Shown: positions 3 through 16,167 of the stretch, piece after piece
Position numbering within the stretch: the stretch's first letter is position 1
Layout: each line of letters starts with the position of its first letter
Source of the DNA: an uncultured Erythrobacter sp.
Lineage (GTDB): Bacteria > Pseudomonadota > Alphaproteobacteria > Sphingomonadales > Sphingomonadaceae
Reading direction: 5' to 3'
Assembly: GCA_947502815.1 (NCBI GenBank)
Contig: CANNBH010000001.1
Span: 1,054,001 to 1,118,000, forward strand
DNA length: 64,000 bases
Notes under the pieces: generated by a model
The model's database searches: none
Seen by the model: the letters and a program-made list of their open reading frames with translations, nothing else
Told to the model about the DNA's origin: nothing
Position numbers and translations under genes: made by a program

Positions 3-1337
3 TTTGGCGCCACTTCGACCTTCGACGTTGAAGTTCTTCCGGACGGCACCAGCGATCTGCTTGCGGCAACGGGTATGGTTACGATCGAAGGCGGAACAGT
101 GAATGTTCTCGCAGGAAGCACAAACTTCAACTTCACGACCAATTACACCATCATCACTGCAGATGGCGGCGTTGATGGACAATTCGACGAGGTCACATCG
201 GATCTGGCGTTCTTGACGCCTACCTTGAGCTACAGCGACAATGCAGTGATGCTCAACCTCACCCGCAATGATGTGGACTTTGGGGCCGTTGGTCAGACAG
301 CAAACCAAGTTGCGGTTGGCAATTCGTTGCAAAACCAACGCACCGGCGAATTGACCAACATTATCATCAACCTTGATGCGGCCACGGCGCGCGATGCGTT
401 TGATCAGCTTTCGGGCGAAGTGCACCCATCCGCTCGCACAGCCATGACAGAGGATATGCGCCTTGTTCGCAATGCGATCCTTAATCACCTGTCCTACAAT
501 GAAGGTGGTCACATCTGGGGCCAAGCTTGGGGCTTCAACGGCGATACAGATGGAGACGGCAACGCAACCGGCCTTTCACGCGACGGTTACGGCATTCTCT
601 TGGGTGCAGACGTCTCTGTTGGTGAAGGCGCCAGCCTTGGTGTGACCGGTAGCTACTCGGATACAGATTTCGATCTCGATCCGCGTGCTGGCGGCAGCAA
701 CACCAATCCTGGCACGGGCAGCGTCCAAACACTCAGCGTCTTGGGCTATGTGGGTGTTGATATGGGCGGACTGCGGCTTCGCGCAGGCGGCGGTTATGGC
801 TGGAGCGAAGTGTCGACAGAGCGCAATGTTGCGTTTGGCACCTTCAGCGACACATTGGCGGCCAATTATGATGGTTCGGTGACCTTCGGCTTCGTCGAAG
901 CTGGTTTCCCGCTCGATATGGGTGATGGAATGCTGGAGCCTTATGCTGGGTTCACGTTTGGTGAAGCGAACACCGATGGCTTCACCGAAACGGGCGGCTC
1001 TGCTGCGCTTCGTATTGCAAGCGGCATCGAAAACTCCAGCACCGCTGTCGCCGGTATCCGCTTCGGGACGGACGAGGACAATGCGTTCCAACTGCGCGCT
1101 AATGCCGGTTACCAGCATGGCCTCAACGATCTTGAGCCGCTGGCCACCGCAAACTTCTCAACCGGCAGCTCGTTCACCGTTGCAGGTGCTCCGCAATCTC
1201 GCAGCTCCGGCTTCTTGCAAGCAGAGGCAAGCTTCCAGCTTGGTGAGAACAGCTCTGTCGGCGTCAGCTATGACGGTATCTACGGTAGCAACACCCAAGA
1301 TCACGCAGGGGTGGTTCGGGTCACAATCGGCTTCTAA
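3..1337 (+). CDS. Autotransporter, C-terminal part (5' partial)
   Basis: The reading frame is open to the left edge of the window, so the N-terminal passenger and signal peptide lie outside it. The visible part has the end of a beta-helical passenger rich in T, N and G. A linker containing [12 protein letters not shown] follows, and then about 270 residues of alternating aromatic and glycine strands ([10 protein letters not shown] onward). The protein ends in VRVTIGF, a terminal Phe typical of outer-membrane beta-barrels. This is the type V autotransporter barrel that carries its own passenger to the cell surface. The passenger's function cannot be told from here. A strong terminator lies 38 bases after the stop. 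Confidence 0.88.
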
Positions 1338-2064: not shown

Positions 2065-2165
2065 GGATCAAACGGGATGATGTTTTTGAGCGCCTTTGCT
2101 AGATAGGAGCAATCCCATTTCGATTGCACGGCGGCTTCTTCCGGCCGCAATCCCTCCAAAGGTGT

Positions 2166-3098
2166 ATGATGAAAGATCCAGCAGACTTCAATTTGCCAGA
2201 GGCCAACTCGGCCGCAATCCGCCGCACCACCGTCGGCGGCGTCGAGACCTTCGAAGCGCATATTGCAGGCGAAACAATTCAATGGGATCGCGGCCTGTCC
2301 TATGGGCAGCATTTGCAAACTGGCCGATTGCTGAATGCGCAAGGCCCCGTTTCTGACAAGCCTGATGAAATGCTCTTCATCATCATGCACCAGACAATGG
2401 AGCTTTGGATAAAGCTGATGTTGCATGAATTGCGCGTGGCGATGGCGCATTTGCGCGGCGATGAATTGGATAAGGCGGGCCGAACGCTCGACCGCACCGC
2501 GACGATCATGCAGCATATGATCCATTCTTGGGAAGTGCTGGCCACGTTAAGCCCGCATGATTTCATGACCTTCCGCGGCTATCTGGGCAAGGCTTCTGGG
2601 TTTCAATCACAGCAATATCGTGAGCTTGAATTCCTGTTGGGGTTGAAACGCCCCGATCTTATCCTTGTCCACAATGGAGACGAGGCGGCGCAGGCGGCTT
2701 TGAATAAGACGTTGGGGGAACCATCTCTTTATGACGAAGTGATCGGCGTGCTGTCGCGGCATGGTTTCACCATTCCAGACAGCAGCCTGAGCCGTGATTG
2801 GTCAAAGCCCTATGCGCCTAGTGTTGAAGTAGAAGAGGCCTGGCTCACCATCTACAACGATCCCAATGCGCATTGGACTCTCTACGATCTGGGAGAGAAG
2901 GTCACCGCACTGGAATACTACTTTCAGGAATGGCGTTTTAAACATATGAAGACGGTCGCGCGCGTGATTGGCCATCGCCATGGCACAGGCGGATCGGCGG
3001 GGGTGCATTATCTGGTCAAAGCGCTTGATTTGCAGTTCTTTCCTGAACTGTGGTCAATGCGAACGCGGATGGAAGCGCATCCCGTGGCAGGTAAATGA
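2166..3098 (+). CDS. kynA: Tryptophan 2,3-dioxygenase
   Basis: This heme enzyme opens the indole ring of L-tryptophan with O2 to give N-formylkynurenine, the first step of the kynurenine pathway. Family hallmarks are visible: LSYGQHLQTGRLLNAQ, the helix MHQTMELWIKLMLHEL with a distal His, FKHMKTV with the probable proximal heme His, and the GTGGSAG substrate loop. Two adjacent ATG codons at 2166 and 2169 follow an AAGG element. The frame is open further up to 2124, but that extension has no family similarity. From 2166 the protein is 310 residues, about the usual length. First gene of the kynA-kynB-kynU operon. Confidence 0.95.
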   Translation: MMKDPADFNLPEANSAAIRRTTVGGVETFEAHIAGETIQWDRGLSYGQHLQTGRLLNAQGPVSDKPDEMLFIIMHQTMELWIKLMLHELRVAMAHLRGDELDKAGRTLDRTATIMQHMIHSWEVLATLSPHDFMTFRGYLGKASGFQSQQYRELEFLLGLKRPDLILVHNGDEAAQAALNKTLGEPSLYDEVIGVLSRHGFTIPDSSLSRDWSKPYAPSVEVEEAWLTIYNDPNAHWTLYDLGEKVTALEYYFQEWRFKHMKTVARVIGHRHGTGGSAGVHYLVKALDLQFFPELWSMRTRMEAHPVAGK

Positions 3099-3123
3099 TG
3101 ACTGCCAATAATATGGAAATGAA

Positions 3124-3759
3124 ATGAGCGAACCTCACATCTGGGATATTTCACAGCGTATTGGCTCTGCAACGCCGCTTTGGCCGGGGGAGCCGCCCGT
3201 GCGGGTCACACGCCATGCGAACATCGGGCCGGATTGCCCCGTCAACATCGGGGCGGTGTCGATGCCGGTTCATACTGGCACCCATGCCGATGCTCCCTTG
3301 CATTACAGTGATGACGGTTTGGCTTCGGCGGATTGCGACATTGCACCCTATGTGGGCCGCTGCGTTGTCGTGGATGTCACCGGAGCAGGGGATCAGGTGG
3401 AGTGTGATGATTGTGATTGGGACGCGATTGCGGGCCATCAGCGGGTAATTCTGCGAACCTATGACCGGTTTCCGCATGATGTTTGGGACGATGGTTTCAC
3501 TGCGATTGCAGCACCTGTGATCGAACGGCTCGGCGCCATGGGCGTGCGGCTAATTGGGGTGGATACACCGTCGCTCGACCCGCAGATTTCCAAGACGATG
3601 GATGCGCATCACGCCGTGTTGGCGGCCGATATGCGCATATTAGAAGGGTTGGTTCTCGATGGCGTGTGCGCCGGTGAGTATGAGCTTGTTGCTCTTCCGC
3701 TTAAGATTGAGGGCGCGGATGCAAGCCCAGTTAGAGCCATTCTTAGAGAGGCCATCTAA
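3124..3759 (+). CDS. kynB: Kynurenine formamidase (arylformamidase)
   Basis: The enzyme hydrolyses N-formylkynurenine to kynurenine and formate. The 211-residue protein belongs to the metal-dependent cyclase/KynB family: it opens with WDISQRIGSATPLWPGEPP and carries the metal-binding motif HTGTHADAPLHY (about residues 50-62). Asp and Ser residues of the second conserved block follow (GVDTPSLDP). The gene starts 25 bases after kynA and its TAA directly abuts the ATG of kynU, so translation of the last two genes is probably coupled. Confidence 0.95.
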   Translation: MSEPHIWDISQRIGSATPLWPGEPPVRVTRHANIGPDCPVNIGAVSMPVHTGTHADAPLHYSDDGLASADCDIAPYVGRCVVVDVTGAGDQVECDDCDWDAIAGHQRVILRTYDRFPHDVWDDGFTAIAAPVIERLGAMGVRLIGVDTPSLDPQISKTMDAHHAVLAADMRILEGLVLDGVCAGEYELVALPLKIEGADASPVRAILREAI

Positions 3760-5013
3760 ATGCCTGATTTCGTTGATGCGCAATTGTTGGGCAAGGCGCG
3801 CGACTTGGACGCGCAAGATCCACTGGCGCGCTTTCGTGATCGGTTCCAGATGCGTGAGGGGTTGATCTATCTCGATGGCAATTCTCTTGGCTGCATGCCC
3901 AAGGCGACGCCGGATAGGATGGCCGACACTCTTTCACGCGAATGGGGCGAGGGGCTGATCACATCGTGGCTGGACGCGGATTGGGCGAATGCGCCGCAGC
4001 GCGTTGGCGACAAGATCGCCCAATTGATCGGCGCGCTGCCCGGCGAAGTGATTGCGGCCGATTCCACCTCTGTGAACATTTTCAAGGCGTTGACCGGTGC
4101 ACTTTCCTTGCGTCCTGAACGCTCAACCATCCTTACAGAGACAACGAATTTCCCCACCGACAGTTATATGATGCAAGGCATAGAGCAATTTTCCGGCGGG
4201 CGGATACAGGCGCGGGCTGTTGCTCCCAATGATGTTTTGGACGCCGTGGATGAGACGACGGCGGCTGTCTTGCTCACCCATGTTCATTACAAGTCTGCCA
4301 AGGCGCGCGACTTGGCCGAAACGACGCGCCGCATTCAGGCATCGGGCGCGCTGGTGATTTGGGATTTGAGCCACAGCACCGGCGCGGTTGATATCGATCT
4401 TGGCGCGGCCAATGCCGATTTTGCGGTTGGATGCGGGTACAAGTTCTTAAATGGCGGGCCGGGTGCGCCGGCTTTCATCTATGTCGCACGCCGCAATCAA
4501 TCAGCCTCTCCGGTTCTGTCTGGCTGGTTTGGCCATGCAAATCCGTTCGCCTTTGAAGAAGGGTATCGTCCTGCCGAAGGGGTAGACCGCTTCCTATGCG
4601 GTACACCCTATGTGCTGGGCCTCGCCGCGCTCGAAGTGGGGGTCGATATGATGTTGGAAGCGGAGATGAGAGCCGTCCGGGCCAAATCAATTGCACTTGG
4701 CCAATTGCTGATAGAAGCGATGGAGCCGCTTTGCGCGGAGCATGGCTTTGTATTGGCGAGCCCTGCCGATCCCAATCACCGCGGCAGCCACGTCGGATAC
4801 GCGCATGAAAACGCCTATGCGATGGTTCAGGCTTTGCGTGATGAAGAGGATGTCATCGCCGATTTCCGGACGCCGGATATCATTCGGTTTGGCCTGACTC
4901 CGCTGACTTTGAGGCATGCGGATATCGTCGAGGCGGTTCGCCGGTTGCAGTCGGTGTGCGCATCAAAAAGCTGGGACAAACCTGCCTATCGAACCCTTTC
5001 CGCGGTCACGTGA
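3760..5013 (+). CDS. kynU: Kynureninase
   Basis: This PLP-dependent enzyme cleaves kynurenine to anthranilate and L-alanine. In its 417 residues the PLP lysine is K228 in GCGYKFLNGGPG, and WDLSHSTGA (about 201-209) supplies cofactor-contacting Asp and His. YLDGNSLGCMP near the N-terminus is the conserved kynureninase opening. It is the last gene of the operon, with its ATG immediately after the kynB stop. Its last 8 bases overlap the 3' end of the convergent ATPase gene. The alanine produced could feed the alanine dehydrogenase at 19.3 kb, but that link is only metabolic inference. Confidence 0.96.
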   Translation: MPDFVDAQLLGKARDLDAQDPLARFRDRFQMREGLIYLDGNSLGCMPKATPDRMADTLSREWGEGLITSWLDADWANAPQRVGDKIAQLIGALPGEVIAADSTSVNIFKALTGALSLRPERSTILTETTNFPTDSYMMQGIEQFSGGRIQARAVAPNDVLDAVDETTAAVLLTHVHYKSAKARDLAETTRRIQASGALVIWDLSHSTGAVDIDLGAANADFAVGCGYKFLNGGPGAPAFIYVARRNQSASPVLSGWFGHANPFAFEEGYRPAEGVDRFLCGTPYVLGLAALEVGVDMMLEAEMRAVRAKSIALGQLLIEAMEPLCAEHGFVLASPADPNHRGSHVGYAHENAYAMVQALRDEEDVIADFRTPDIIRFGLTPLTLRHADIVEAVRRLQSVCASKSWDKPAYRTLSAVT

Positions 5014-5419
5014 TCGTTAGGCTTAGGGTGTTGAGGTTGCCGCTGCGCGAATAGGCGATGTTGCTGCCCCATGTGTGCACAATCGCCAGACCAACGCCGC
5101 CGCCTGTCTGCGGATCGGGGCCGGTGAATTCCGGGGCTGCCGCAGGGTCAAAGGCCTGGCCGTCATCCTCAATACGCAGATCGACGCCTGCACCGGTATC
5201 CTGCAGCGAAACCCACAAGGCGATGTCCCTGTCTGGCCCGCCATGATGTAAACAATTGGATACTAACTCCTCCACGATGATCGCCGCCTTGACACGGGCG
5301 CGTTCATCAAGGCAGCTTTCGGGAAGAAAGTCGCGCGCGAATTGCAGCGCTTCCATTATTGTGGAGCGCGGATCGCTTCCGCTGGCAACGAATGCCGAAA
5401 ATCGTCTCTTGTGAGCCAC
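5006..5419 (-). CDS. RsbW-like serine kinase / GHKL ATPase
   Basis: The 137-residue cytosolic protein is a single GHKL ATPase domain (HATPase_c_2). The N box is EELVSNCLHHGG with E51 and N55, the G1 box is IEDDGQAFDP (84-91), and the G2 box is GGGVGLAIVH (107-115). It has no histidine-phosphotransfer region, as expected of anti-sigma-factor serine kinases of the RsbW/SpoIIAB type. Such kinases phosphorylate a STAS antagonist, and a STAS protein (9.7 kb) and a PP2C phosphatase (6.6 kb) lie nearby. No sigma-factor gene is visible in the window, so its final target is unknown. Confidence 0.88.
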   Translation of the reverse strand: MAHKRRFSAFVASGSDPRSTIMEALQFARDFLPESCLDERARVKAAIIVEELVSNCLHHGGPDRDIALWVSLQDTGAGVDLRIEDDGQAFDPAAAPEFTGPDPQTGGGVGLAIVHTWGSNIAYSRSGNLNTLSLTIT

Positions 5420-5456
5420 GATTCTATGCTAACACGATATCTGTCTGGGGGAATAC

Positions 5457-5891
5457 ATGAGAAAATTTGCTATCCTTATCGTTGCCATGGCCGCCTTGGT
5501 CGCGCAACCGGCATTGGCTGATATCGGGCGGATCAAAAATGTGACCAGCGGAGTGCAGGTTATTCGCGATGGCCGCGCCATTACCGCACGCCCCGGCTTA
5601 CGTCTCAGGGAAGGCGATGTCATTGTCACATCGCGCCGGTCGCGGGTTGGCATCACCCTGTCCGATGATACGCGCATGGCGCTTGGCCCAAACAGCCGGG
5701 TCACTCTGGATGAATATGAATATGATCGCCGCCGCCAAACAGGCCGGTCGGTAACGTCGATCAATCGCGGATCCTTGGGCGTGACATCCGGCAACATCAC
5801 CCGCAGCGGCCGTGACCGGATGCGTGTGCGCACGCCAACATCGACATTGGGTGTGCGCGGGACGACCTTTGTGGTTGAGGTTTCGGGATAA
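5457..5891 (+). CDS. Secreted FecR-domain protein
   Basis: The 144-residue protein has a signal peptide of about 21 residues ending in PALA. A FecR-type domain follows: GVQVIRDGRAITARPGLRLREGD, a predicted beta sandwich, and TPTSTLGVRGTTFVVEV, the characteristic end of stand-alone periplasmic FecR proteins. It is not a classical FecR anti-sigma regulator because it lacks a cytoplasmic or membrane segment. Its stop overlaps the start of the OmpA-like lipoprotein gene (TAATG), so the two are coupled. It probably acts in the periplasm; a ligand cannot be named. Confidence 0.85.
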   Translation: MRKFAILIVAMAALVAQPALADIGRIKNVTSGVQVIRDGRAITARPGLRLREGDVIVTSRRSRVGITLSDDTRMALGPNSRVTLDEYEYDRRRQTGRSVTSINRGSLGVTSGNITRSGRDRMRVRTPTSTLGVRGTTFVVEVSG

Positions 5892-6559
5892 TGCGGCTGG
5901 CTCTAGCGCTCGGCACCGCCCTTACACTCAGCGCCTGCGCCGGCGACCGAGTTACCTTGCTTTCGCACGCTGATGGTGGCCCGATTGGATCGGTGGCTGT
6001 GCTGCAAGAGGGCGACGAAGACGTCGTTCTGGATACAGAAAATCAGCAGGTAAAGTTGCGCGCAGGCCGCCCGCGATTGCGGCAATTGGCGCAGTCCAAT
6101 CCTGACCATGCCGAGCTTTTGCAATATTTGCCTTCGGCTCCAATCTCTTATGTCCTGCCTAATTTTCCTGTCGGCAGTTTTTCCCTAAGCGATGAAAGCA
6201 AGGAAGAGATCGAAGCCTTCATGTGCTTGGCCGAATTTAGGGAAGGGTGCGCGCGTTTCTTCCCCGAATGTTCAGAGCCAACGGACGTGGAGCTGCAGGC
6301 AGCAGGCAAATGCCCCGTTCCGCGGCCCGGGTATAAGGTTGAAATCCGGGGTTTCACAGACACGACCGGCGGCGATTCTTTAAACGATGATGTCTCGCAG
6401 AACCGGGCCACAGAGGTCGCTGAAGCTATGCGGGCGCTTGGTTATAACATCGACCTTAGCGACGCTTTGGGTTTGGGTGAGGGCCCTGCCAAAAGAAGCG
6501 GTGTGGCAGATGAATTCGATATCGGTGAATGGCGCAAGGTCGAAATCGTCATTCGTTGA
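5891..6559 (+). CDS. OmpA-like lipoprotein
   Basis: The 222-residue protein has a lipobox LSAC with lipidation at Cys16, a poorly conserved middle region, and a C-terminal OmpA-like peptidoglycan-binding domain (about 130-220). The latter contains VEIRGFTDTTGG, SQNRATEVAEAMRALG and WRKVEIVIR. Four Cys residues at about 105-135 could form disulfides inside an insertion of the OmpA fold. The domain normally holds the protein on the cell wall. Its TAATG overlap with the FecR-domain gene implies a joint envelope role. Confidence 0.83.
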   Translation: MRLALALGTALTLSACAGDRVTLLSHADGGPIGSVAVLQEGDEDVVLDTENQQVKLRAGRPRLRQLAQSNPDHAELLQYLPSAPISYVLPNFPVGSFSLSDESKEEIEAFMCLAEFREGCARFFPECSEPTDVELQAAGKCPVPRPGYKVEIRGFTDTTGGDSLNDDVSQNRATEVAEAMRALGYNIDLSDALGLGEGPAKRSGVADEFDIGEWRKVEIVIR

Positions 6560-6602
6560 TCTATCGCGCCCCATTCGCGGCTCCAGTCGCGGCGCCAGTC
6601 GC

Positions 6603-8720
6603 CTACTGAGTCTCTGGGGCATCATCGCCAAGATAACGCAGCGCAAAGATCGTCAGGTCGTCCGTGGGATCATTCGTCCCTTCGAACAGGCGAACTTGCC
6701 TAGCGAGCCGCGATGCGCGTCCCTTTGCCGTGGTTTCGCCCTTGGCCGAAAGTGACGCCAAGACGCCGCCCATGCCAAACAACTCGTCCTTCTCATTGGC
6801 GGCCTCTGTCGCGCCATCGGTGATCACAATCAGAGTTTCACCTTTGGCCAGCTCGATCGTTTCCACAGGGTAGGGGAATTCGATCACACATAGGGGCGGT
6901 CCGCCGATCATCTCGAATGTGTTGACGCTGTTGTCTGCGCCCACAATCATTGGGTTTTCGTGACCGGCGTTGATCAATTGTGCTGCTCCGGTCCGACAAT
7001 CGATCGTGCCAACCAGCATGGTCAGCCCCATCTCATCATCGGCCTCATCCATCAGATCGCGATTGAGCGCCGCCACGGCCTTGACCAAGCCATCTCCGGC
7101 CCGCGCCAAATTGCTTTTTGAAAGGGTTTTGGACAGGGCCATGAACAGGGCCGCTGGCACCCCTTTGCCGGTTACATCGCCCACCATGAAAAGCAGCAAA
7201 TTTTCGTTGATCTTCACCGCATCAAAAAAGTCCCCGCCGACTGATTTTGCGGGTTCTAAAACTGCACCGATTTCGGTGCGCCGATCGAGGCGTGCGAGCG
7301 CTTTGTCACCCGGCACCATACTCATCTGAATCCGCCGTGCTGCGTCCAATTCGCCCTTTTGCACCGATGCCTTGATACGTTCTTCGACCAATTCATCGGC
7401 GAGCCGTTTGCGCTCTGCGCGCGCGATTGCGTAACGGGCGATTGTCAGCGCGACGGCCGCGCAGACTGCGACCAGCAAGGGGCGCACCGGGTCGAACAAG
7501 AGATTGGCCTGCGTGTATGCGAGCCAAGAACCAAACGGCAAAGCCAGCGCAGTGCCAAACGCGATCCACAAAGGCCAAGTTCGCGCGGTAAGGGCGGCGG
7601 CTAAGACCAGCGCCAACAGCAACCCGGCAAAGGCCAATTCCAGCGCAATCATAGAGGCAGGCCGCGATAACCACGCCTGTTCTAGAATCGCATCGACCGC
7701 TTGTGCCTGAACCATAACGCCGAACGCATTGCTGTTCAGGGGGGTTGAGACGATGTCGTAGGTGCCAGTGGCGATAACGCCAATAATGACCACCTTGCCT
7801 GCAAAAACATCTGGAGGAACCTGTTGGTCCAAAACGTCGATAGCTGAAACTTGCGCTGCACCCGGCAGATCGCCCATGCGAAACTGCATATTCGCGCCAT
7901 CATCGGCAGGCACCAGGGTTTCGCCAAAGGCCAAAGCGCCGTCTGACCATTCCAACTGTTCCACATCCAAGGCGATCCGGGCCAATTCAGCGGCAAATCC
8001 AGCGGCTTGCGTATCGCTCACTTGTGTTGCCAGCGGCACCCGGCGGACCAAACCGTCTTTGTCCGGCTCACCGTTGAGCATGCCGTGGCCCATGGCCACT
8101 TCATCAAGGACAAAGATGCTGGCGAGCACCCGGTCGGCGGTGAGGATGTCGGGCGGCGGTGTGCCTGTAACCTCTGGGTTGAAGAAATATTGATCGACCG
8201 TTTCACCGCGGCCATTGGCCGCCACACGGCCCAAAACGCTGGGCGTTTGGCCCAAAACCGCGCCCAGATAGGTGTCCATATCAGGCAGAGCGAGTACTTT
8301 CTCGCGGGTCTCAAGATCCAATTCTTCATCGTGATATCGGTCGGCGAACATTCGCGGGCTAAGCGGGTCGGGTTCGGTGAAATAGATGTCGATCCCGACC
8401 GCTTTGGGCCCAGCGGCAGCGATTTCATTGATCAATTGCGCGGTGACATAGCGCGGCCAAGGCCAGACGCCGGGGCCGTCTTCTGCCGCTTGCTCAATGC
8501 TGTAATCGTCGACCAGAACAACAACGACATTGTCCGCGGTAATCTCTCGCGGGGAGATGCGCTGCCATGTGTCAAACAGAGTGCGGCGTTCAAAATCACC
8601 GGCGAAGAATGTCAGCAAGGCGCCGATCAAACCGCCCATTAAGACGGCGCGTATAAGAGGGGAACGGCGCGAAGTCGGCGCGTCTTGCAGGTCAGATTTA
8701 GATTTCGACACAGAGCCCAT
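6603..8720 (-). CDS. CHASE2-domain PP2C (SpoIIE/RsbU-type) phosphatase
   Basis: The protein of about 705 residues has a membrane segment at about 24-42 and then a CHASE2 extracytoplasmic sensor (about 45-345, with VVVVLVDDYSIEQ, GPKAVGIDIYF and GKVVIIG). Three membrane segments (355-430) and a coiled linker follow. The cytoplasmic PP2C domain contains AKSVGGDFFD with metal Asp498, VGDVTGKGVPAALFMA with Asp516, and DPTDDLTIFAL. SpoIIE-type phosphatases dephosphorylate STAS antagonists, and one is encoded two genes upstream in the same operon. Two adjacent ATGs occur at 8723 and 8720. The start overlaps the end of the MBL-fold gene by about 25 bases, indicating coupling. Confidence 0.92.
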   Translation of the reverse strand: MGSVSKSKSDLQDAPTSRRSPLIRAVLMGGLIGALLTFFAGDFERRTLFDTWQRISPREITADNVVVVLVDDYSIEQAAEDGPGVWPWPRYVTAQLINEIAAAGPKAVGIDIYFTEPDPLSPRMFADRYHDEELDLETREKVLALPDMDTYLGAVLGQTPSVLGRVAANGRGETVDQYFFNPEVTGTPPPDILTADRVLASIFVLDEVAMGHGMLNGEPDKDGLVRRVPLATQVSDTQAAGFAAELARIALDVEQLEWSDGALAFGETLVPADDGANMQFRMGDLPGAAQVSAIDVLDQQVPPDVFAGKVVIIGVIATGTYDIVSTPLNSNAFGVMVQAQAVDAILEQAWLSRPASMIALELAFAGLLLALVLAAALTARTWPLWIAFGTALALPFGSWLAYTQANLLFDPVRPLLVAVCAAVALTIARYAIARAERKRLADELVEERIKASVQKGELDAARRIQMSMVPGDKALARLDRRTEIGAVLEPAKSVGGDFFDAVKINENLLLFMVGDVTGKGVPAALFMALSKTLSKSNLARAGDGLVKAVAALNRDLMDEADDEMGLTMLVGTIDCRTGAAQLINAGHENPMIVGADNSVNTFEMIGGPPLCVIEFPYPVETIELAKGETLIVITDGATEAANEKDELFGMGGVLASLSAKGETTAKGRASRLARQVRLFEGTNDPTDDLTIFALRYLGDDAPETQ

Positions 8721-9663
8721 CATACGAACACAGCACTTTTAACTCAGCGCCATTGCGGGTCAGTTCTTCGTACCTGATGGTTTCGCCATGCATCCGTTCG
8801 ATATCTGCGTCGCTGTAGGTGGGTTCATGGTGAAACAATGCCAGACGCTTGGCCCCGGCCTGATGGCATAAATCCACTGCCACGATGTTGGAGGAATGGC
8901 CCCAGTCTTCCTTCATGGAAACGCTATCAGCGAGAGAATACATCGTGTCAGCAATCACCAGATCAGCCTCCGCGATAAAGTCCACCATCGCAGATTCGGT
9001 GTCCATATTTTCAATCTTATATTCGGCATCGGTTGAATAAATTGCGACCTTACCGTCGGCATCGCAAAAACGATAACCATAGCTGGCGTGGCTGTGTTCC
9101 TGCTGGATTAGCGATACGGTCAGTTCGCCGATTTTATAGTCTTGGCCCGTTTCCAGCGTCCGAAACTCGATATCCGCTTTCAACCAATGGAATGGCACGG
9201 GAAAGGAGATTTCTTCCTGCTGCCGGCGCAGCGCTTCTTCGGCATCGGCGTGGCCTGCGTGGATGATGACCTTTGCCCCTTCGACGAAGGCGGGCACAAA
9301 GAAAGGGAACCCCATTATGTGGTCCCAATGCAGATGCGAAAGGAAGAAATGCCATTCCTTTGGCCGGTGCCCGTCAGACAATCGCCGCAGCGTGTCGAGG
9401 CCAAATTCGCGCAGGCCCGATCCCATGTCGCACACGACGAAAGCGCCTTTACCTGCATCCACTTCAACACAGCTGGTTGCGCCGCCATAACCTTGCCCCA
9501 CGGCAAAGCTTAATTCGTCGCGGGCATAGGCCGCAGCCGCTTCTTTGTCGGTGAAGCTCTTGCCATTGGCATGGACGAGAGCGTCTGCGATCTTATCAGT
9601 GATTGTCGAGGCGTGCGGCGCCACAGGCAGCGACCCGCGCGTTCCCCAAAACCGGATCTGCAT
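8698..9663 (-). CDS. MBL-fold metallohydrolase (candidate cyclic nucleotide phosphodiesterase)
   Basis: The 321-residue cytosolic protein opens with RFWGTRGSLPV, seen in PhnP/RNase Z-like and cyclic-nucleotide-phosphodiesterase-like members of the metallo-beta-lactamase superfamily. Metal ligands are visible in SHLHWDHIMGF (HxHxDH), in the EHSH region, in STDAEY, in WGHSS and in LFHHEP. The substrate is not known. A cAMP phosphodiesterase role is only suggested by the adenylate cyclase encoded next door. It lies between the STAS gene (22 bases upstream) and the CHASE2 phosphatase (overlapping), so it belongs to this operon. Confidence 0.85.
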   Translation of the reverse strand: MQIRFWGTRGSLPVAPHASTITDKIADALVHANGKSFTDKEAAAAYARDELSFAVGQGYGGATSCVEVDAGKGAFVVCDMGSGLREFGLDTLRRLSDGHRPKEWHFFLSHLHWDHIMGFPFFVPAFVEGAKVIIHAGHADAEEALRRQQEEISFPVPFHWLKADIEFRTLETGQDYKIGELTVSLIQQEHSHASYGYRFCDADGKVAIYSTDAEYKIENMDTESAMVDFIAEADLVIADTMYSLADSVSMKEDWGHSSNIVAVDLCHQAGAKRLALFHHEPTYSDADIERMHGETIRYEELTRNGAELKVLCSYDGLCVEI

Positions 9664-9685
9664 ATTCCCCCCTAAAACCTAAGAG

Positions 9686-10036
9686 CTAGTGCCCGATTGC
9701 ATCCTCAATCGTGTCAGCGACCCGAAAGACCATATCGTAACGGCTGATCGCCAATATTTCCCGCATCGTTTCATTGGGGCGGGCCAAAACAATCGTTGTG
9801 TCTGATCCTTGTCCAGCGCGCTGAGCCAGCGTCAATGCGCGCAGCCCCCGCGATGACATATACTCAACGCCGCCGAGGTCGATCACCGCAATGGCAGGCC
9901 CTTTTCCCATCGCATCAAGCAAGTGGTCTTTAAAGGCATCGGCGGTCGTTTCATCGACCCGGCCGGTGGGTGCAAGCACGGTTGCGCCCGCGCGTTCTTC
10001 GCTGTTCCAGTCCAGAGAGCCGCTTTCCATCGCCAA
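9686..10036 (-). CDS. STAS-domain anti-sigma factor antagonist (RsbV-like)
   Basis: The 116-residue single STAS domain contains VLAPTGRVDETTADAFK and the conserved VEYMSSRGLRAL, where a Ser of the SS pair (about residues 62-63) is the predicted phosphorylation site. Such proteins free a sigma factor or another target when unphosphorylated. The partners are probably the GHKL kinase at 5.0 kb and the CHASE2-PP2C phosphatase in the same operon. It is the first gene of the three-gene minus-strand operon and is divergent from the cyclase gene. Confidence 0.9.
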   Translation of the reverse strand: MAMESGSLDWNSEERAGATVLAPTGRVDETTADAFKDHLLDAMGKGPAIAVIDLGGVEYMSSRGLRALTLAQRAGQGSDTTIVLARPNETMREILAISRYDMVFRVADTIEDAIGH

Positions 10037-10178
10037 TGCATAGCGCGGCTTGTCCCGATTGCCAAATACATGGCTCTAGGCACGATGCTCCACTGAACCT
10101 GTAGGGACATCCACGACCAAGACGCCTTGCGCGAACGGGGTAAAACCGCTTTGCTGATGCCACGTGGGGGAAACGCGA

Positions 10179-12287
10179 ATGTCTGACGAATCAAAATCGA
10201 ACAAGCGCCGGGGATTGATTGCTCGTGGTTGGCGCAGTGTTCGAGAGGCGAGCTCAATCCAGTTGTTTGCGACCTGCCTGTTTTTGGCGTTCGCGATATT
10301 CCTGGCCCGGTTCAGTTGGATACTCCCCGGCGGCGAGCCAACCCCGCTGACCAATGCGGCCGAACAGGCATTGTACGACACCCGCGCATATCTTTCATCT
10401 GAACTGGTGGAGCAGGATGATCGCATCGTTCTTGTCGTTTACGATGATCAGGCGCTGATCAATCTTGAACAACGATCGCCTCTGCCGCGTGACGCGTTGG
10501 CGGAGGCGCTGGGCAATTTGGATCAAATGGGCGCAAAGGCGATTGGGATCGATATTCTCTTCGATCAACCGCAAGCCGATGATGACCTGCTGATCGAAAC
10601 CCTCCGCAACATGCAGACCCCCACAGCGGTCGGCTATGCCAATGTCGCCACCAATGAAAGCGACATTGTGTTTGCGCAGCAGGCATTCCTCGATGAGTTT
10701 ATGGCCCAACTCGAAGGGACGAATTCCCGCCCGGCTAGCATCCGGCTCGACAATTCCTTTGGCGCGACGCGCATTTGGCCCTCTATCGAACCCGGCCTGC
10801 CGCCGCTTCTTGGCAGAGCAATGTTGGAGGATTCCGGCGGCCCGTTTGAGGCATTCACCGATTACCAAGGCGCGATTGAGTACCGCCGGGCCCTGCGCGC
10901 AGACTTTGAAAACGGTGAACTAGAAGGGGCAGGCGAAGAGGCCGTTCAGGCAGACATTGAAGAACCTCTATTCCAAGGTGTCTCAATTGAATTGTTCACC
11001 AATCTTGACCCGGCGGTGGCAGAATATGTCGCGCAGGAGATTGAGGGCAAATATGTCCTCATCGGCGGTGACATCGTTGATTATGACCGGGTCGAAACTT
11101 CCTTCACATCCTTCACCGGCTTCGAACCATCCGGTCTGTCTGTGCACGGCGAGATGATTGCGCAAATGCTTGATGGCAAAGTGCTTCCCGAAATGCCCAA
11201 CTGGGCGCTGTGGGCGATCTCCATTTTGGTGGTGACGAGCGCGGCTCTTACTGCATTGCTTGAATGGCCTGCATTCAAACTTGTGCCGCTTTTTGTGGTG
11301 ATGTTTGTCCTGTTCGTGGGCGCACCCTTTGCGCTTCACTTCCAAGACGTAGACACATACGGCCTGCCCGCGGTGGGTTGGTTGGTCGCCTGGATTATCG
11401 CCTTTACCGTGGTGACATCGGCGGCGCGATCGGCTGGCGCGGCGCAGCGCAGCTTTGCGCAAGGCGCGCTGGGTAAATACATTCCGCGCGATATCGCCCA
11501 GCAGATCATTGATGATCCCGATTTGCTCTCTTTGGGAGGGGAAAAGCGTGAAATCTATGTCCTGTTCAGCGATCTCGAGGGCTTCACAAAGATGAGCCAC
11601 GCGATTGAGCCGGAAATGGTCGCAAAGTTGCTCAACCGATATTTGGAAATGTTGAGCAATGTTGTGCTGGAACATGGCGGGGTCATCGACAAATTCGTGG
11701 GCGATGCTGTGGTTGCGTTTTGGGGCGCTCCGATTGCGCGTCCTGATGATGCAGAGCGTGCGGCCAATGCTGGATATGCAATGTGGAAGGCCGGCGAAGA
11801 TTTTCGCAAGGAGGTCGCCGCAATGGATGACAGCCTGCCGAAAATTGGCAAAACGCGGGTTGGCCTGCATTACGGCGAAGCGGTGATCGGCAATTTTGGC
11901 GGCGAAACGCGGATTCAATACACCGCCCTTGGCGACAGTATGAACACCGCTGCCCGGTTAGAAGCGGCCAACAAACCGCTGGAATCGAGTGTTTCTGCTA
12001 GCCGTGAGTTCATTGAGCGTTCCGCACCCGATTGGTGGGTGCCGATGGGGCGGATTGTTCTGCGCGGCCGGGCGCAACCGGTCGATATTTATCAACCCAT
12101 GCCCGATTTTCCGCCAGACCATCGCGCCAAACTGATTGAGGCCGCTCAGCTTAGCGAAAGCAAACATGACGTAGCGATACAATTAATCGACGAAGTGGCT
12201 GCTATGCATCCGGAGAACCCGGCGCTGCGTAACTATTGCAGTCGCATTCGAAATTTGAATGAGGGGGGAGCTTATGTTCTCGGATAA
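10179..12287 (+). CDS. CHASE2-domain adenylate cyclase (class III)
   Basis: The roughly 702-residue protein has a membrane anchor (about 28-47) and a CHASE2 sensor (about 60-335, with RIVLVVYDD, GAKAIGIDILF and GKYVLIGG). Three membrane helices (342-415) and a class III cyclase domain (about 455-640) follow. Catalytic motifs are intact: VLFSDLEGFT (metal Asp), DKFVGDAVVAFWG (substrate Lys and second metal Asp) and YTALGDSMNTAARLE, where Lys and Thr point to ATP rather than GTP. ATG 10179 is preferred over GTG 10164 because GGGGGA lies 7 bases before it. It should make cAMP in response to an envelope signal. It overlaps the next gene. Confidence 0.93.
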   Translation: MSDESKSNKRRGLIARGWRSVREASSIQLFATCLFLAFAIFLARFSWILPGGEPTPLTNAAEQALYDTRAYLSSELVEQDDRIVLVVYDDQALINLEQRSPLPRDALAEALGNLDQMGAKAIGIDILFDQPQADDDLLIETLRNMQTPTAVGYANVATNESDIVFAQQAFLDEFMAQLEGTNSRPASIRLDNSFGATRIWPSIEPGLPPLLGRAMLEDSGGPFEAFTDYQGAIEYRRALRADFENGELEGAGEEAVQADIEEPLFQGVSIELFTNLDPAVAEYVAQEIEGKYVLIGGDIVDYDRVETSFTSFTGFEPSGLSVHGEMIAQMLDGKVLPEMPNWALWAISILVVTSAALTALLEWPAFKLVPLFVVMFVLFVGAPFALHFQDVDTYGLPAVGWLVAWIIAFTVVTSAARSAGAAQRSFAQGALGKYIPRDIAQQIIDDPDLLSLGGEKREIYVLFSDLEGFTKMSHAIEPEMVAKLLNRYLEMLSNVVLEHGGVIDKFVGDAVVAFWGAPIARPDDAERAANAGYAMWKAGEDFRKEVAAMDDSLPKIGKTRVGLHYGEAVIGNFGGETRIQYTALGDSMNTAARLEAANKPLESSVSASREFIERSAPDWWVPMGRIVLRGRAQPVDIYQPMPDFPPDHRAKLIEAAQLSESKHDVAIQLIDEVAAMHPENPALRNYCSRIRNLNEGGAYVLG

Positions 12288-13032
12288 ATTTATGGGCCGC
12301 TTTGCCGGTCGCTTTTTGAGCGTCGCACTCGTTGGTGCCGCTATGACAATCCCGGCAGCGGCGTCTGCCGGAGTGGTCGTGAAATCTACCGGTCCATCAT
12401 CGGGCACATATCCCGTGGGTCAACAGGTCGACGATTCTTCAACAATCACGTTGCGAGCAGGCGACAAAATCACTGTCCTCACCGATGGTGGGACGCGGGT
12501 ATTGCAAGGGCCGGGCACGTTCCGTGTCGGCGCAGGCGCGACGCGCACACGCACTCAGTTTTCAAACCTTACCCGCCGCGGCAATCGCGGCCGGGCACGC
12601 ACTGGAGCGGTCCGGGGTACGGCTGTATCGTCCGGCAATCCCAACCTTTGGTTCGTGAATGTCGCCGCGTCAGGCCCTGTCTGCTTGTACGATCTGGAAG
12701 CTGTGCGTCTGTGGCGTCCGGTCGCAGAGGGTGCGCAGACCTATCAAATTACGGATCAAGCATCGGAAACCACATTGGATGTGAATTTCGTTGAAACAGA
12801 AAGCCTGCGGGCGCTGGATCCTGAAGGTCTCACACTGGTCGATGGCAACAGCTACACGGTCACCGCACCTGCTGGCGAAGATGGTGCGACCACTTCGGTC
12901 GAAATGACCTTTGTTAAATTGACAGAGGAAGATCTGTCGCCGGGTGAACTGGCTCAGACGTTGATTGAGAATGGCTGTATGACCCAATTGGGTCAACTGG
13001 CTGACCGGTTGGAGGCATCCGCAGCTCCATAA
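12274..13032 (+). CDS. Secreted FecR-like protein coupled to the cyclase
   Basis: The 252-residue protein has a signal peptide (cleavage near PAAASA). A beta-rich FecR-like segment follows (ITLRAGDKITVLTDGGTRVLQG, then GPGTFRV), then a basic stretch rich in R and G and an acidic C-terminal half with two Cys in reach of each other. ATG 12274 is chosen because GGGGGGAG sits 6-7 bases upstream; ATG 12259 lacks a site. It overlaps the cyclase stop by 14 bases, so co-translation with the CHASE2 sensor is likely. A periplasmic partner role is inferred. A terminator follows. Confidence 0.72.
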   Translation: MFSDKFMGRFAGRFLSVALVGAAMTIPAAASAGVVVKSTGPSSGTYPVGQQVDDSSTITLRAGDKITVLTDGGTRVLQGPGTFRVGAGATRTRTQFSNLTRRGNRGRARTGAVRGTAVSSGNPNLWFVNVAASGPVCLYDLEAVRLWRPVAEGAQTYQITDQASETTLDVNFVETESLRALDPEGLTLVDGNSYTVTAPAGEDGATTSVEMTFVKLTEEDLSPGELAQTLIENGCMTQLGQLADRLEASAAP

Positions 13033-13085: not shown

Positions 13086-13238
13086 ATGCGCGAACGGACC
13101 CGGCTGCATCTTAAACGGACGGTCAACCAATAAACTTTTCCTTTTCCTTTTTGCGCTAGGTGCCGCTCATCCGGCGATGCAGATCGGCGGGTATTGGCAT
13201 GCGGCAATTCAGGCGGTCGCGACGCGTAGGAGGAATTG

Positions 13239-14621
13239 ATGGACGTTTCACGTCGCGCGGTGTTGGCCGGCGCTGCGGCAAGTGTGGCTGCGACTGGGCT
13301 ATCGGGATGCGCAACCGCATCCTTTGGCTCACGCTCGAGTTATCTCACCAACATTGTTGATCCGCGCAACACCAACACGGTGTATCACTGGGTCGATATC
13401 GCCATGCAACAAGTGCGCGATCAACGCGTTGCACCTCCGCGCGCCGCTTACAATTTTGCTGCTCCTATGGTGGCTGGCTTTGCGGCGGCCAATGCCATTA
13501 TTGGGCGGTATGACATGCCCTACGATCTGGGAGAGGCGCCCGTTGGGGCCGATCCAGAGGTTGCCTATGGCGTCGCCTTTGCCACCGCTGCCGCTGAGTG
13601 TTTCCAGCAGCCCTTCCTGTGGGAGCGGCGCGGGTTCTTAAGCCGGTTTGATAGCGGAGAGGCCAAAGAATTAGGAGCGGCATGGGGACGCCACGTTGGC
13701 ATCGCCATCAACAAAATGCGCACCCATGACGGGGCTCAGCCAGACCGCGTAAATTACTATCTTGGCCGGTATCCGCGCCGCGATGATGCGCTGAAATGGA
13801 CCCCCACTGGCCCCACTTACAGCGCGGGTCCCGGCCCGGCTGTCGGGGCCTATGATCGCGGCCTTTTCCCCGGACATGGCCAGATCACCCCGTGGACAAT
13901 GACTTCGCCTTCGCAATTCCGGGTCGATCCCTTTCCCGATCCGCGCAGCCCCGAATTCGCGGCTCAATTTGAACAAGTGTGCGCTTTAGGCGGCAAGGAT
14001 TCGATGGAGCGCACGGCAGATCAGTCGGAGATTGCGCTGTTTTGGGAGGATGGCCCATGGGGTATCACCCCGCCGGGGCATTTCCTCTACATCGGTTTGC
14101 AGGTCATGCAGGATCGCGGTTTTGATTTCCTAGACCATGCGCGCCATTTCGCGCTGATGGGGGCAACGCAAGCGGATGCCTCGATCAATGCGTGGGACAG
14201 CAAATACACCTATGACGTGCTGCGCCCAGAAACGGCGATTAAGTTTCGCTGCGGGGAATTTGGCAATCCTGACCCGCGCGTCGCTGCGCAGCCGCAATGG
14301 CAAAGCTATATTCCAACTCCCAATTTCCCCGCCTACACATCGGGACATTCGACCTTTGGCGCCGCAGGCGTGGAAATGGTGAAACTGTTGATCGGAACGG
14401 ATGCCGTTCGATTCAGTCATGAAAGCCCTGACCAAGTTCTGTGGCCAAGCCTAACGGGCAAACGCCGCCATTTCACCAGTCTGGATCAGGCCGCGCATGA
14501 AAATGGATGGAGCCGGATTTATGGCGGCGTCCACTGGATGCAAGATCACGATGCAGCCGACTATGCCGGACGCCAGATTGCCCGCCATGCCTTTCAAACC
14601 ATGTTCCGGCGCAAGGTGTAA
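13239..14621 (+). CDS. Exported vanadium-haloperoxidase / PAP2-superfamily protein
   Basis: The 460-residue protein begins with an RR-containing signal (SRRAVLAGAAASVAATG) and a lipobox-like LSGC, suggesting Tat export with possible lipidation. All three superfamily motifs are visible: KYTYDVLRP (K-x6-RP), YTSGHS (SGH core) and SRIYGGVHWMQD (SR-x5-H-x3-D). These bind vanadate in haloperoxidases or phosphate in phosphatases. The length and the HW after GGV favour the vanadium-dependent haloperoxidase-like branch, but halide oxidation is not proven. ATG 13239 is preceded by TAGGAGG; the in-frame TTG just before it is not needed. Confidence 0.85.
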   Translation: MDVSRRAVLAGAAASVAATGLSGCATASFGSRSSYLTNIVDPRNTNTVYHWVDIAMQQVRDQRVAPPRAAYNFAAPMVAGFAAANAIIGRYDMPYDLGEAPVGADPEVAYGVAFATAAAECFQQPFLWERRGFLSRFDSGEAKELGAAWGRHVGIAINKMRTHDGAQPDRVNYYLGRYPRRDDALKWTPTGPTYSAGPGPAVGAYDRGLFPGHGQITPWTMTSPSQFRVDPFPDPRSPEFAAQFEQVCALGGKDSMERTADQSEIALFWEDGPWGITPPGHFLYIGLQVMQDRGFDFLDHARHFALMGATQADASINAWDSKYTYDVLRPETAIKFRCGEFGNPDPRVAAQPQWQSYIPTPNFPAYTSGHSTFGAAGVEMVKLLIGTDAVRFSHESPDQVLWPSLTGKRRHFTSLDQAAHENGWSRIYGGVHWMQDHDAADYAGRQIARHAFQTMFRRKV

Positions 14622-14624
14622 GCA

Positions 14625-15662
14625 ATGCATAAAGGCAGAAAATGCGCTCTTGGTCTTGGGTCGGCGCTCGGCATCGCGCTCACCCCTGGTGCTGTCCACG
14701 CTCAGGATGTGAACCTCAATTACGACCGGCTTTCTTCGTTGGAAGAACCGATCGCCTATGACTTTGCAGGGATCACGCTTTCGCTGACCGGGCTGGTGGA
14801 TGTGCCTGTTGTCGCAGAATTTGACGAAGTGACCGGCGGCGATGACGTCAATGTCGAAATCGTTGGCAATTTTCAGTTCACCGCTGAAACAAAGCTCGCC
14901 AATCGTTGGACTGTCGGGGCGGTCTATTTCGGCCAATATTCATCCGCACCGATGGATGGATTTGGCGGATCTCAAGATTATTCGGACAATGTCGCAGGCT
15001 TCGTCGCCACCAGTTTCGGCACAGTCATTGGGGGCAATGTTAATCAGCAAGTGCGCGAATTGACCCGGCGGCGTCGCGGGGTCGGCAATGGCTTTTTGGC
15101 GTTTGACGATTTTCTAGGCGGTTTGGACAATTGGGGCGGGGCCTATGTTGGCCGTTTTGGTCCCAGCGTGATCGGCGTTACCGTGGATGAGAACGCCGAT
15201 TTCGAAGTGGGCGGTGTTTTTCAGCGGCCTATCGGCGTGCGCGACCTGCGCTTTGCCGCGCGTTATCGCGAAGGGCGCTTTACCGCCGCCGATGGCATCA
15301 CTGATTTTGAAACGCGCGGCGCGGCGATTGTTGGCGAATTTGTTTATGGCAGCTCACTGTTCGATCTGGGCGCGGGGTATGAACAATTGGACGGGACCGT
15401 GACAGAGCTTGATCGCTGGTTCGTTTCAGCCGGTGCGCAGACCCAAATGGGTCCGCTTCAGCTTTCGGCAGAAGGGCATTATGGACGCGCGGCTGGGGAT
15501 GAAGAAATCTCGGTTGGGTTGGGCGCAGATTACGCAGTGGCCCGCGGGCTTTCGCTCAACCTCGGCCTCAATCACGCCGATGCAACGATTGTGTCTGACG
15601 GGGTCACATTGGTCGAAACCGATGAAGTGAAGGCGATTGGCTCGATCCGGTTCAGCTATTGA
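14625..15662 (+). CDS. Porin-like outer membrane beta-barrel protein
   Basis: The 345-residue protein has a signal peptide (to about VHAQ) and alternating amphipathic strands such as FQFTAETKLANRWTVGAVYFG, here spanning positions 14865-14932. A C-terminal strand VKAIGSIRFSY ends in Tyr after Phe, as in porins. It resembles the general Gram-negative porin family of alphaproteobacteria. It starts 3 bases after the haloperoxidase-like gene, so the two may be co-transcribed. The substrate is unknown. Confidence 0.75.
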   Translation: MHKGRKCALGLGSALGIALTPGAVHAQDVNLNYDRLSSLEEPIAYDFAGITLSLTGLVDVPVVAEFDEVTGGDDVNVEIVGNFQFTAETKLANRWTVGAVYFGQYSSAPMDGFGGSQDYSDNVAGFVATSFGTVIGGNVNQQVRELTRRRRGVGNGFLAFDDFLGGLDNWGGAYVGRFGPSVIGVTVDENADFEVGGVFQRPIGVRDLRFAARYREGRFTAADGITDFETRGAAIVGEFVYGSSLFDLGAGYEQLDGTVTELDRWFVSAGAQTQMGPLQLSAEGHYGRAAGDEEISVGLGADYAVARGLSLNLGLNHADATIVSDGVTLVETDEVKAIGSIRFSY

Positions 15663-15710
15663 TGGAGGTTGCGCCTTGAAAAGCCGCGCCCGGCCCCGCA
15701 CATCAATTGT

Positions 15711-16088
15711 ATGGACGCGCGCGCACATCCCTCTGATCACGACGTCAGGTTAAAGGTCTGGTTCGATGGCGCTTGCCCCCTGTGCCGGCGGGAAATTGCG
15801 CTGATGAAACGGCTGGATCAGGCAGGGGCGATCAATTTTATCGATGTCTCTGGCGATGGCGATCCCAGTTGCCCCATTGATCAGGCGCAATTGTTGGCGC
15901 GCTTTCATGCTGAGGAAAACGGCGTCGTGCTGTCAGGCGCGGCAGCCTTTGCAGCAATGTGGCGGGCAATACCCCGGCTTCGCATTCTTGGCCGGATGGC
16001 GCGCAACCCGTGGGTTTTGACTGTGTTGGAGCGGCTGTACCTCATAGGTCTGCGTATTCGCCCGGCTTTGCAAAAACTGGCCCGATAA
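15711..16088 (+). CDS. Thiol-disulfide DCC-family protein (DUF393)
   Basis: The roughly 125-residue protein has the family signature VWFDGACPLCRREIALMKR with a CPLC thioredoxin-like pair, followed by LLARFHAEENG and SGAAAFAAMWRAIP. DCC proteins are thought to act in thiol redox reactions; their substrates are mostly unknown. The frame extends to a TTG at 15669 that directly abuts a GGAGG, too close for initiation, so ATG 15711 is preferred with moderate confidence. Confidence 0.8.
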   Translation: MDARAHPSDHDVRLKVWFDGACPLCRREIALMKRLDQAGAINFIDVSGDGDPSCPIDQAQLLARFHAEENGVVLSGAAAFAAMWRAIPRLRILGRMARNPWVLTVLERLYLIGLRIRPALQKLAR

Positions 16089-16167
16089 ACTTCACAAAAG
16101 ACTTGCCGCTCCGCGCGACTTCGTCTCTCTTCCTTGCAAGCACACCATGCGGGAAGAGGGTCACATC

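Follow-up and report, generated by a model that had tools for sequence, protein, structure and literature searches.

A STAS-MBL partner-switch cassette and a CHASE2-cyclase unit in an Erythrobacter genome as candidate opposing controls of cyclic AMP

Eight signalling genes lie within 8 kb of an uncultured Erythrobacter genome, and their arrangement raises the question of which of them belong together and what they might control. They occupy positions 5006-13032 of a 64,000-nucleotide stretch (G000:C1:1054001-1118000, within a 3.15-Mb genome; hereafter the window), and a first-pass annotation had taken them for one envelope-signalling island. We identified the genes from open reading frame calls and Pfam matches of the eight proteins. 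Along the window the order was GHKL kinase (-), FecR1 (+), OmpA-type lipoprotein (+), CHASE2-PP2C phosphatase (-), metallo-beta-lactamase (MBL)-fold hydrolase (-), STAS protein (-), CHASE2-adenylate cyclase (+) and FecR2 (+). Seven of the eight proteins carried the domains named by that annotation, while its second FecR protein (12259-13032) had no Pfam match. The overlapping starts and stops it described were present: 26 nt between MBL and PP2C, 1 nt (TAATG) between FecR1 and OmpA, and 14 nt between cyclase and FecR2, given a FecR2 start at the conserved Met at 12274. STAS-MBL-PP2C forms a single overlapping transcription unit, and FecR1-OmpA a second one converging on it. The two CHASE2 genes do not sit back to back as had been stated, because MBL and STAS separate them; they are divergent. 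The answer we favour, at slightly less than even odds, is that two sensor units, a STAS-MBL partner switch (unit 1, a six-gene cassette) and a cyclase unit (unit 2, the cyclase and FecR2), set cyclic AMP (cAMP) from both ends.

To assess the conservation of unit 1, we searched a sample of the order (196 genomes) for CHASE2-PP2C and samples of the class (337), the phylum (299) and the family (229) for MBL, and examined the locus surroundings by tblastn and neighbour clustering. Near full-length CHASE2-PP2C matches (E<=5.1e-144) were found in 10 of the 196 order genomes. MBL was found in 20 of the 229 family genomes and, in the class sample, in the window genome and 15 others at E<=2e-62, the next match being 1.4e-42. 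At E<=1e-50 the phylum sample yielded the window genome and G756 alone, the latter also an alphaproteobacterium; since this sample is rich in alphaproteobacteria, it tests the range beyond them poorly. We compared 48 MBL loci, window included (L035-L047, L065, L067-L080, L160-L178), which are not independent events because several are close relatives. All six genes, in the same order and on the same strands, were present in 26 of them (window, L035-L045, L047, L067, L068, L077, L160, L162, L163, L165, L167, L169, L170, L173, L176, L178), with OmpA membership in L042-L044, L047, L067 and L077 assigned by neighbour clustering. GHKL, present in these 26 full cassettes, was not detected in every locus. 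STAS directly preceded MBL in 47 of the 48 loci, the exception being L164, and CHASE2-PP2C followed MBL in 38, a count biased by the 13 loci (L035-L047) that had been found through PP2C. The ten loci without PP2C either lay at a contig edge (L069, L080, L171) or lacked the gene (L161, L164, L168, L174, L177, L071, L072). Of the 34 loci retrieved with MBL as the only query, 33 had STAS beside MBL, 24 had PP2C and 13 had all six genes.

Protein distances of MBL, STAS, PP2C, FecR1 and GHKL agreed pairwise (r 0.85-0.94; 10 pairs, 14-26 genomes per pair, 0/999 permutations in each), L038 being left out here and in the insertion count below as a near-copy of L036. This agreement indicates that the cassette genes travelled together, and the kept order and strands together with the shared divergence pattern argue that the cassette is more than chance. 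Clustering revealed no further gene kept in most of the 29 neighbourhoods compared.

The most persistent part of the cassette is the STAS-MBL pair, which remains without the phosphatase in L161, L168, L174, L177 and L072 and is accompanied by GHKL in L071. Because STAS and MBL stay together where the cassette is reduced, MBL would be a client of STAS and not a passenger. The MBL hydrolase, whose role the first-pass annotation overlooked, would be the likeliest STAS client and a possible cAMP-degrading enzyme. In genomes of genus g462 (L161, L168, L174, L177) an STAS-MBL pair without phosphatase is a second copy besides a full cassette, and the next gene downstream in L174 and L177 begins like what we take to be a tRNA pseudouridine synthase.

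The identity of the MBL enzyme was then considered from its residues and model. S109, H110, H112, D114 and H115 (the SHLHWDH motif), H190, D212 and H278 were invariant in 26/26 aligned sequences (alignment without L037, L038 and L080). The available text of PMC9293780 defines atypical class II cyclic-nucleotide phosphodiesterases by the motif [T/S]HXHXDH and places YhfI and Rv1339 there; with Corynebacterium glutamicum CpdA these are members named in that paper and PMC9117128, the latter giving cAMP and cGMP as the preferred substrates of YhfI. Structure alignment with VIA-align gave the MBL model a tie between RNase Z (Z 26.6, rmsd (root-mean-square deviation) 2.8 over 248) and YhfI (Z 25.9, rmsd 2.3 over 231), followed by yeast PDE1 (Z 22.8) and PhnP (Z 22.0), and Foldseek matches of the model included Apyc1. 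The cassette enzyme thus carries the [T/S]HxHxDH motif on a YhfI-like MBL fold, and all 26 sequences matched the family model NF041851 at E<=1e-5. It differs from the class II enzymes in its position behind STAS, in scores far below the NF041851 cut-off and in a helical N-terminal insertion. Between the RGS and GG motifs the cassette MBL has 48 residues, compared with 11 in the non-cassette proteins L081, L082 and L084 (four alphaproteobacterial sequences, the three complete ones counted by eye; L083 similar). The roughly 37 extra residues form helices 18-31 and 40-50 in the AlphaFold2 model (pLDDT 85), which makes this insertion a candidate at which STAS probably docks. Motif and fold together suggest a hydrolase of the phosphodiesterase group, with a cyclic nucleotide, cAMP first, as our best guess for its substrate.

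The three switch proteins retained their key residues. PP2C D498, D516, D636, D688 and D689, which we take to be the catalytic and metal-site positions, were kept in 22/22 aligned sequences. STAS carried S61 in 24/24 and S62 in 23/24 sequences and thus has a phosphorylatable serine, the phosphorylated residue presumably being one of these two. GHKL E50, E51, N55, G60, D85, G107 and G110, covering the N and G boxes, were invariant in 15/15, and the OmpA-type lipoprotein had an N-terminal signal and Cys in 9 aligned sequences. Sequences with a stop in the crude gene calls were left out of the cyclase, PP2C and OmpA alignments. From these families and residues, both observed directly, we infer the reactions of a partner switch among PP2C, STAS and GHKL. 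The first-pass annotation had noted the lack of a sigma factor, and this was borne out among the eight proteins, none of which matched a sigma factor family in Pfam or NCBIfam, a search that did not extend to the rest of the window or to unlinked sigma factors.

The familiar outcome of partner switching is the release of a sigma factor, and clients that set a second messenger are few, such as SiaD for cyclic di-GMP (c-di-GMP). In the SiaABCD system of Pseudomonas aeruginosa, a membrane PP2C, a kinase and a STAS-type protein share an operon with a diguanylate cyclase client making c-di-GMP. The cassette likewise joins a membrane PP2C, a kinase and STAS to a putative second-messenger enzyme; it differs in that its client would be an MBL hydrolase and in having a CHASE2 sensor and FecR and OmpA partners. 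No GGDEF match, as expected of a SiaABCD-type client, was found by Pfam among the eight proteins, and the cassette PP2C gave a weak NCBIfam SiaA match (28.6 bits, cut-off 700). In Rhodobacter capsulatus, RbaV, RbaW and RbaY comprise STAS, HATPase and PP2C proteins with STAS as the dominant player and, as far as the available text of PMC3999984 goes, no identified sigma factor. The cassette resembles this alphaproteobacterial set, but the Rba PP2C carries a REC domain and lacks CHASE2, and that text names no MBL, FecR or OmpA partners.

In unit 2, a FecR2 ortholog followed the cyclase in 20/20 cyclase loci fetched (16 of the 41 cyclase-bearing order genomes and 4 more). Cyclase D470, K510, D514, D591, N594 and R598, presumably the catalytic positions, were present in 21/21 aligned sequences, so that CHASE2 is joined here to a class III cyclase domain of the CyaD1/CyaK kind with its catalytic residues. 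Judged by such residues, both the cyclase and the PP2C enzyme look active. The FecR2 profile was weakly similar to FecR1 (hhalign 38.6%, E 3e-4); its AlphaFold2 model (pLDDT 82.6) matched no PDB structure at E<=0.001, and the matches listed were mostly Ig/FN3-like sandwiches of low TM-score. The CHASE2 cyclases CyaD1, CyaD2 and CyaK of Sinorhizobium meliloti, described with NsrA and the FecR protein SMc02177, depend on an outer-membrane protein for signal perception (PMC5498481, PMC13001267, in the parts available). SMc02177 and CyaD1 are a published FecR-CHASE2 pair, and SMc02177 is not required for plant-signal activation according to the accessible text of PMC5498481. Unit 2 resembles them as a CHASE2-cyclase with a nearby periplasmic FecR gene; it differs in that the window's FecR2 is not a Pfam FecR and that these sources, as far as available, describe no partner-switch cassette.

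We next compared the distribution of the two units. The cyclase pair adjoined the cassette in the window and G127 (L039) alone, and lay about 13-14 kb from it in G163, G792, G793, G794 and G795. The conserved co-occurrence that the first-pass annotation had proposed as a check therefore held for the six cassette genes, with the cyclase and FecR2 mostly a separate unit; because this pair lies apart outside one clade, a single island of eight genes was rejected. In the family sample, the cyclase was found in 81 genomes, including 19/20 cassette genomes versus 62/209 others (Fisher p 8e-9; by genus 9/10 versus 30/86, p 0.001), in tests that ignore phylogeny and genome size. All 10 PP2C genomes of the order sample were among its 41 genomes with the cyclase. 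In the class sample (16 cassette genomes, 48 without), the cyclase occurred in 6/16 versus 2/48 at E<=2.3e-58, a threshold chosen afterwards; several genomes belong to a single family and many of the 48 are small, so that this comparison decides little. Gene content in the family sample suggests a functional tie of cassette and cyclase. The 13-14 kb separating the units in those five genomes hold a ShlB/FhaC-type transporter gene and a gene for a large exported protein without Pfam match. Among Erythrobacter relatives these two stand between the units in L035-L038 and L040/L100, with loci L100-L104 concerned too, and they directly follow cyclase-FecR2 in L113, L114, L115 and L117 of other genera. 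A link with adhesin export by two-partner secretion was not adopted, because the window and G127 lack this pair there.

Both units share a sensor type, and we examined whether the pairing of FecR and CHASE2 is a wider pattern. The window genome has four CHASE2 genes, with PP2C, cyclase, histidine kinase and EAL outputs, and three Pfam FecR genes, each adjoining a CHASE2 gene: FecR1 with PP2C, a LysM-FecR gene with the histidine kinase (L053) and a FecR gene with EAL, next to a ShlB gene (L054). Locus L053 (G000:C1 ~3130870-3135740) also holds a response regulator and a small lipoprotein-like gene without Pfam match, and L054 (G000:C1 ~2573240-2579590) consists of a 745-aa FecR protein, CHASE2-EAL and a ShlB-type transporter gene. 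Across 41 genomes, at least 29 of 112 FecR genes lay no more than 5 kb from a CHASE2 gene among the matches listed, versus 0.69 expected (about 40-fold), which leaves at most 83 of 112 away from the CHASE2 genes so listed; without the window genome it was at least 26 of 109 among these matches, versus 0.66. Conversely, when 13-kb stretches around 40 CHASE2 loci (40 genomes) were scanned with a home-made FecR profile, 14 contained FecR, so that a universal pairing was rejected. No FecR was seen among the 46 neighbours of FecR-less CHASE2 loci in the 25 of 71 Pfam families listed, where single cases are possible (neighbour list without L120, L135, L136 and L148, whose CHASE2 frame was not picked). 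These results show that FecR-CHASE2 pairing is common, not universal, and they suggest an envelope input that can be reused with different outputs. The BiofilmReg operon, with a response regulator, LysM-FecR, a CHASE2 histidine kinase and DUF4136 in the text available (PMC5192318), also combines an exported FecR-type protein with a CHASE2 sensor; L053 (G000:C1:3132350) is similar to it, and its output is a two-component one, not a partner switch or a cyclase.

From these results we propose a working model in which envelope state gates cAMP hydrolysis through STAS docking, under its phosphorylation state, on the MBL helical insertion, opposing the FecR-like/CHASE2 cyclase unit; we give this a probability of about 0.35. 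FecR1 in the periplasm and the OmpA lipoprotein at the outer membrane and peptidoglycan would convey the state of the envelope to the phosphatase's CHASE2 domain, as their pairing suggests. PP2C would take the phosphate off STAS Ser61/62 and the GHKL kinase would restore it. Unphosphorylated STAS may bind and control MBL, probably via the insertion, as the STAS-MBL core suggests, and MBL would most likely hydrolyse a cyclic mononucleotide, cAMP first, to judge from motif and fold. Unit 2 would make cAMP on its own envelope signal, and co-occurrence suggests that MBL and cyclase could be opposing arms of one cAMP cycle. Within this model, and held with equal reserve, the cassette would be an ancient, patchily kept alphaproteobacterial module. 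The protein families, active-site residues, gene order, joint inheritance, STAS-MBL core, MBL fold group and cyclase co-occurrence are observations, from which we infer the substrate, the signal, every binding step and which way control runs.

Several observations weigh against this model. The cyclase and cassette were unlinked (far apart or on other contigs) in 17/19 family-sample genomes with both, and G896 has all six cassette genes but no cyclase. A control gene of the same genome, CHASE2-EAL, was enriched with the cassette too (11/20 versus 50/209, p 0.005; by genus 6/10 versus 28/86, p 0.09), so that part of the co-occurrence is general, and the neglect of phylogeny and genome size bears on these tests as well. 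OmpA, FecR1 and GHKL were not detected near STAS-MBL-PP2C in four loci of one genus (L046, L166, L172, L175), and the MBL of G849 (L164) stands alone. With NF041851 the window MBL reached 57 bits (cut-off 400), about the same as with the RNase Z model TIGR02651 (61.4 bits, cut-off 293); because both models match far below their cut-offs, the substrate assignment stays loose. No Pfam match at E<=0.01 was found in 21/21 FecR2 orthologs, with PF04773 in 0/21.

Some of these points fit a different explanation, in which two independent FecR-CHASE2 modules became neighbours by accident and their joint presence would be a mark of lifestyle or of a large stock of signalling genes. Placing FecR next to CHASE2 is a widespread habit, as all three FecR genes of the window genome and its four differing CHASE2 outputs illustrate, the CHASE2-EAL control is enriched, and cassette and cyclase are linked in one clade only. 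However, the enrichment of the cyclase (19/20) exceeds that of the control (11/20), and the cyclase without the cassette is common (62/81) whereas the cassette without the cyclase is rare (1/20). We regard accidental neighbours as rather unlikely, and as less likely than our own model. A conventional RsbU/V/W-type switch, in which the target of STAS and GHKL is a sigma factor encoded elsewhere or some other protein and MBL is an accessory (e.g. for RNA or metabolite hydrolysis), would agree with the intact PP2C, STAS and GHKL motifs and with the Rhodobacter Rba system, which functions with no sigma factor linked to it or identified in the available text of PMC3999984. The most constant neighbour of STAS, however, is MBL (47/48), above the phosphatase (38/48, with 3 others at contig edges) or the kinase, and no other gene was kept in most neighbourhoods; we judge a switch of this type at roughly one chance in four. 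The first-pass annotation itself had proposed one envelope signal split into a partner-switch and a cAMP branch. Both units do have a CHASE2 sensor and an exported FecR or FecR-like partner and are divergent in the window, but the partners differ (FecR1 with OmpA versus FecR2, with weak hhalign similarity at most) and the units usually lie apart; a split signal was not borne out and appears improbable.

The STAS-gated hydrolase model would have consequences beyond this locus. No description of the six-gene cassette was found in the open full-text literature searched, as far as the texts were available, nor any relation of the eight genes to a known named system in that literature; the cassette would be a new variant of partner switching as far as this literature goes. 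A STAS protein constantly tied to a hydrolase of the cAMP-phosphodiesterase fold group offers a testable case of phospho-switch-controlled cAMP degradation, with a docking candidate. FecR1 and FecR2, with their respective CHASE2 sensors, are concrete pairs for the question of what CHASE2 senses.

The coordinates of the features are collected in Table 1. For STAS, cyclase and FecR2, the sequence makes the internal starts given there likelier than the outermost ones.

Table 1. Features of the two units in the window (positions count from its first letter).
Feature	Position	Strand	Evidence
GHKL serine kinase, RsbW/SpoIIAB-like, cassette gene 6	5006-5419	-	HATPase_c_2 E 5.6e-14
Head-to-head gap, GHKL start to FecR1 start, 37 nt	5420-5456	.	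coordinates
FecR1, exported FecR-domain protein, cassette gene 5	5457-5891	+	PF04773 E 2.2e-11
OmpA-type lipoprotein with lipobox, cassette gene 4	5891-6559	+	PF00691 E 7e-7
CHASE2-SpoIIE (PP2C) membrane phosphatase, cassette gene 3	6603-8723	-	Pfam E 1.6e-48 (CHASE2), 3e-38 (SpoIIE, PF07228)
MBL-fold hydrolase, cassette gene 2, proposed STAS client, putative cyclic-nucleotide phosphodiesterase	8698-9663	-	Lactamase_B_2 E 1.1e-14
Codons of the MBL helical insertion (~residues 17-57), proposed STAS docking site	9493-9615	-	alignment and model
STAS antagonist protein, cassette gene 1, likely start ATG 10030	9686-10036	-	PF01740 E 1.6e-14
CHASE2-adenylate cyclase, unit 2, likely start 10179	10164-12287	+	CHASE2 2.7e-25, Guanylate_cyc 6.8e-16
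FecR2, exported cyclase partner, unit 2, likely start 12274	12259-13032	+	gene order; FecR-like weakly

The 37-nt gap between the GHKL and FecR1 starts leaves little room for two ordinary promoters. The spacer measured 37-44 nt in the window and 12 loci (L035-L045, L047) and was longer, 177-210 nt, in L067, L068 and L077. A promoter scan found 3 matches versus 4.1 in shuffles, and a search of the window for cAMP receptor boxes (TGTGA-N6-TCACA, 2 mismatches) gave 23 matches versus 18.9 expected, hence no support; no Rfam family and no tRNA was found within the window.

The 3' end of GHKL overlaps the 3' end of a kynureninase gene by 8 nt. Kynureninase is preceded by tryptophan dioxygenase-like and kynurenine formamidase-like genes (window 2124-5013; kynureninase alone was Pfam-tested), and kynurenine-pathway-like genes adjoin the cassette in L035, L037 and L039 as well. 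Behind FecR2, window 13236-17331 holds a vanadium-haloperoxidase/PAP2-like gene (Pfam), a porin-like gene and an FMN alpha-hydroxyacid-dehydrogenase-like gene, the latter two named by appearance, and a gene like the last also lies near the cyclase pair in L100-L104. At window 75-1337, a frame resembles by appearance the barrel end of an autotransporter, and a related frame is present in L036 and L038.

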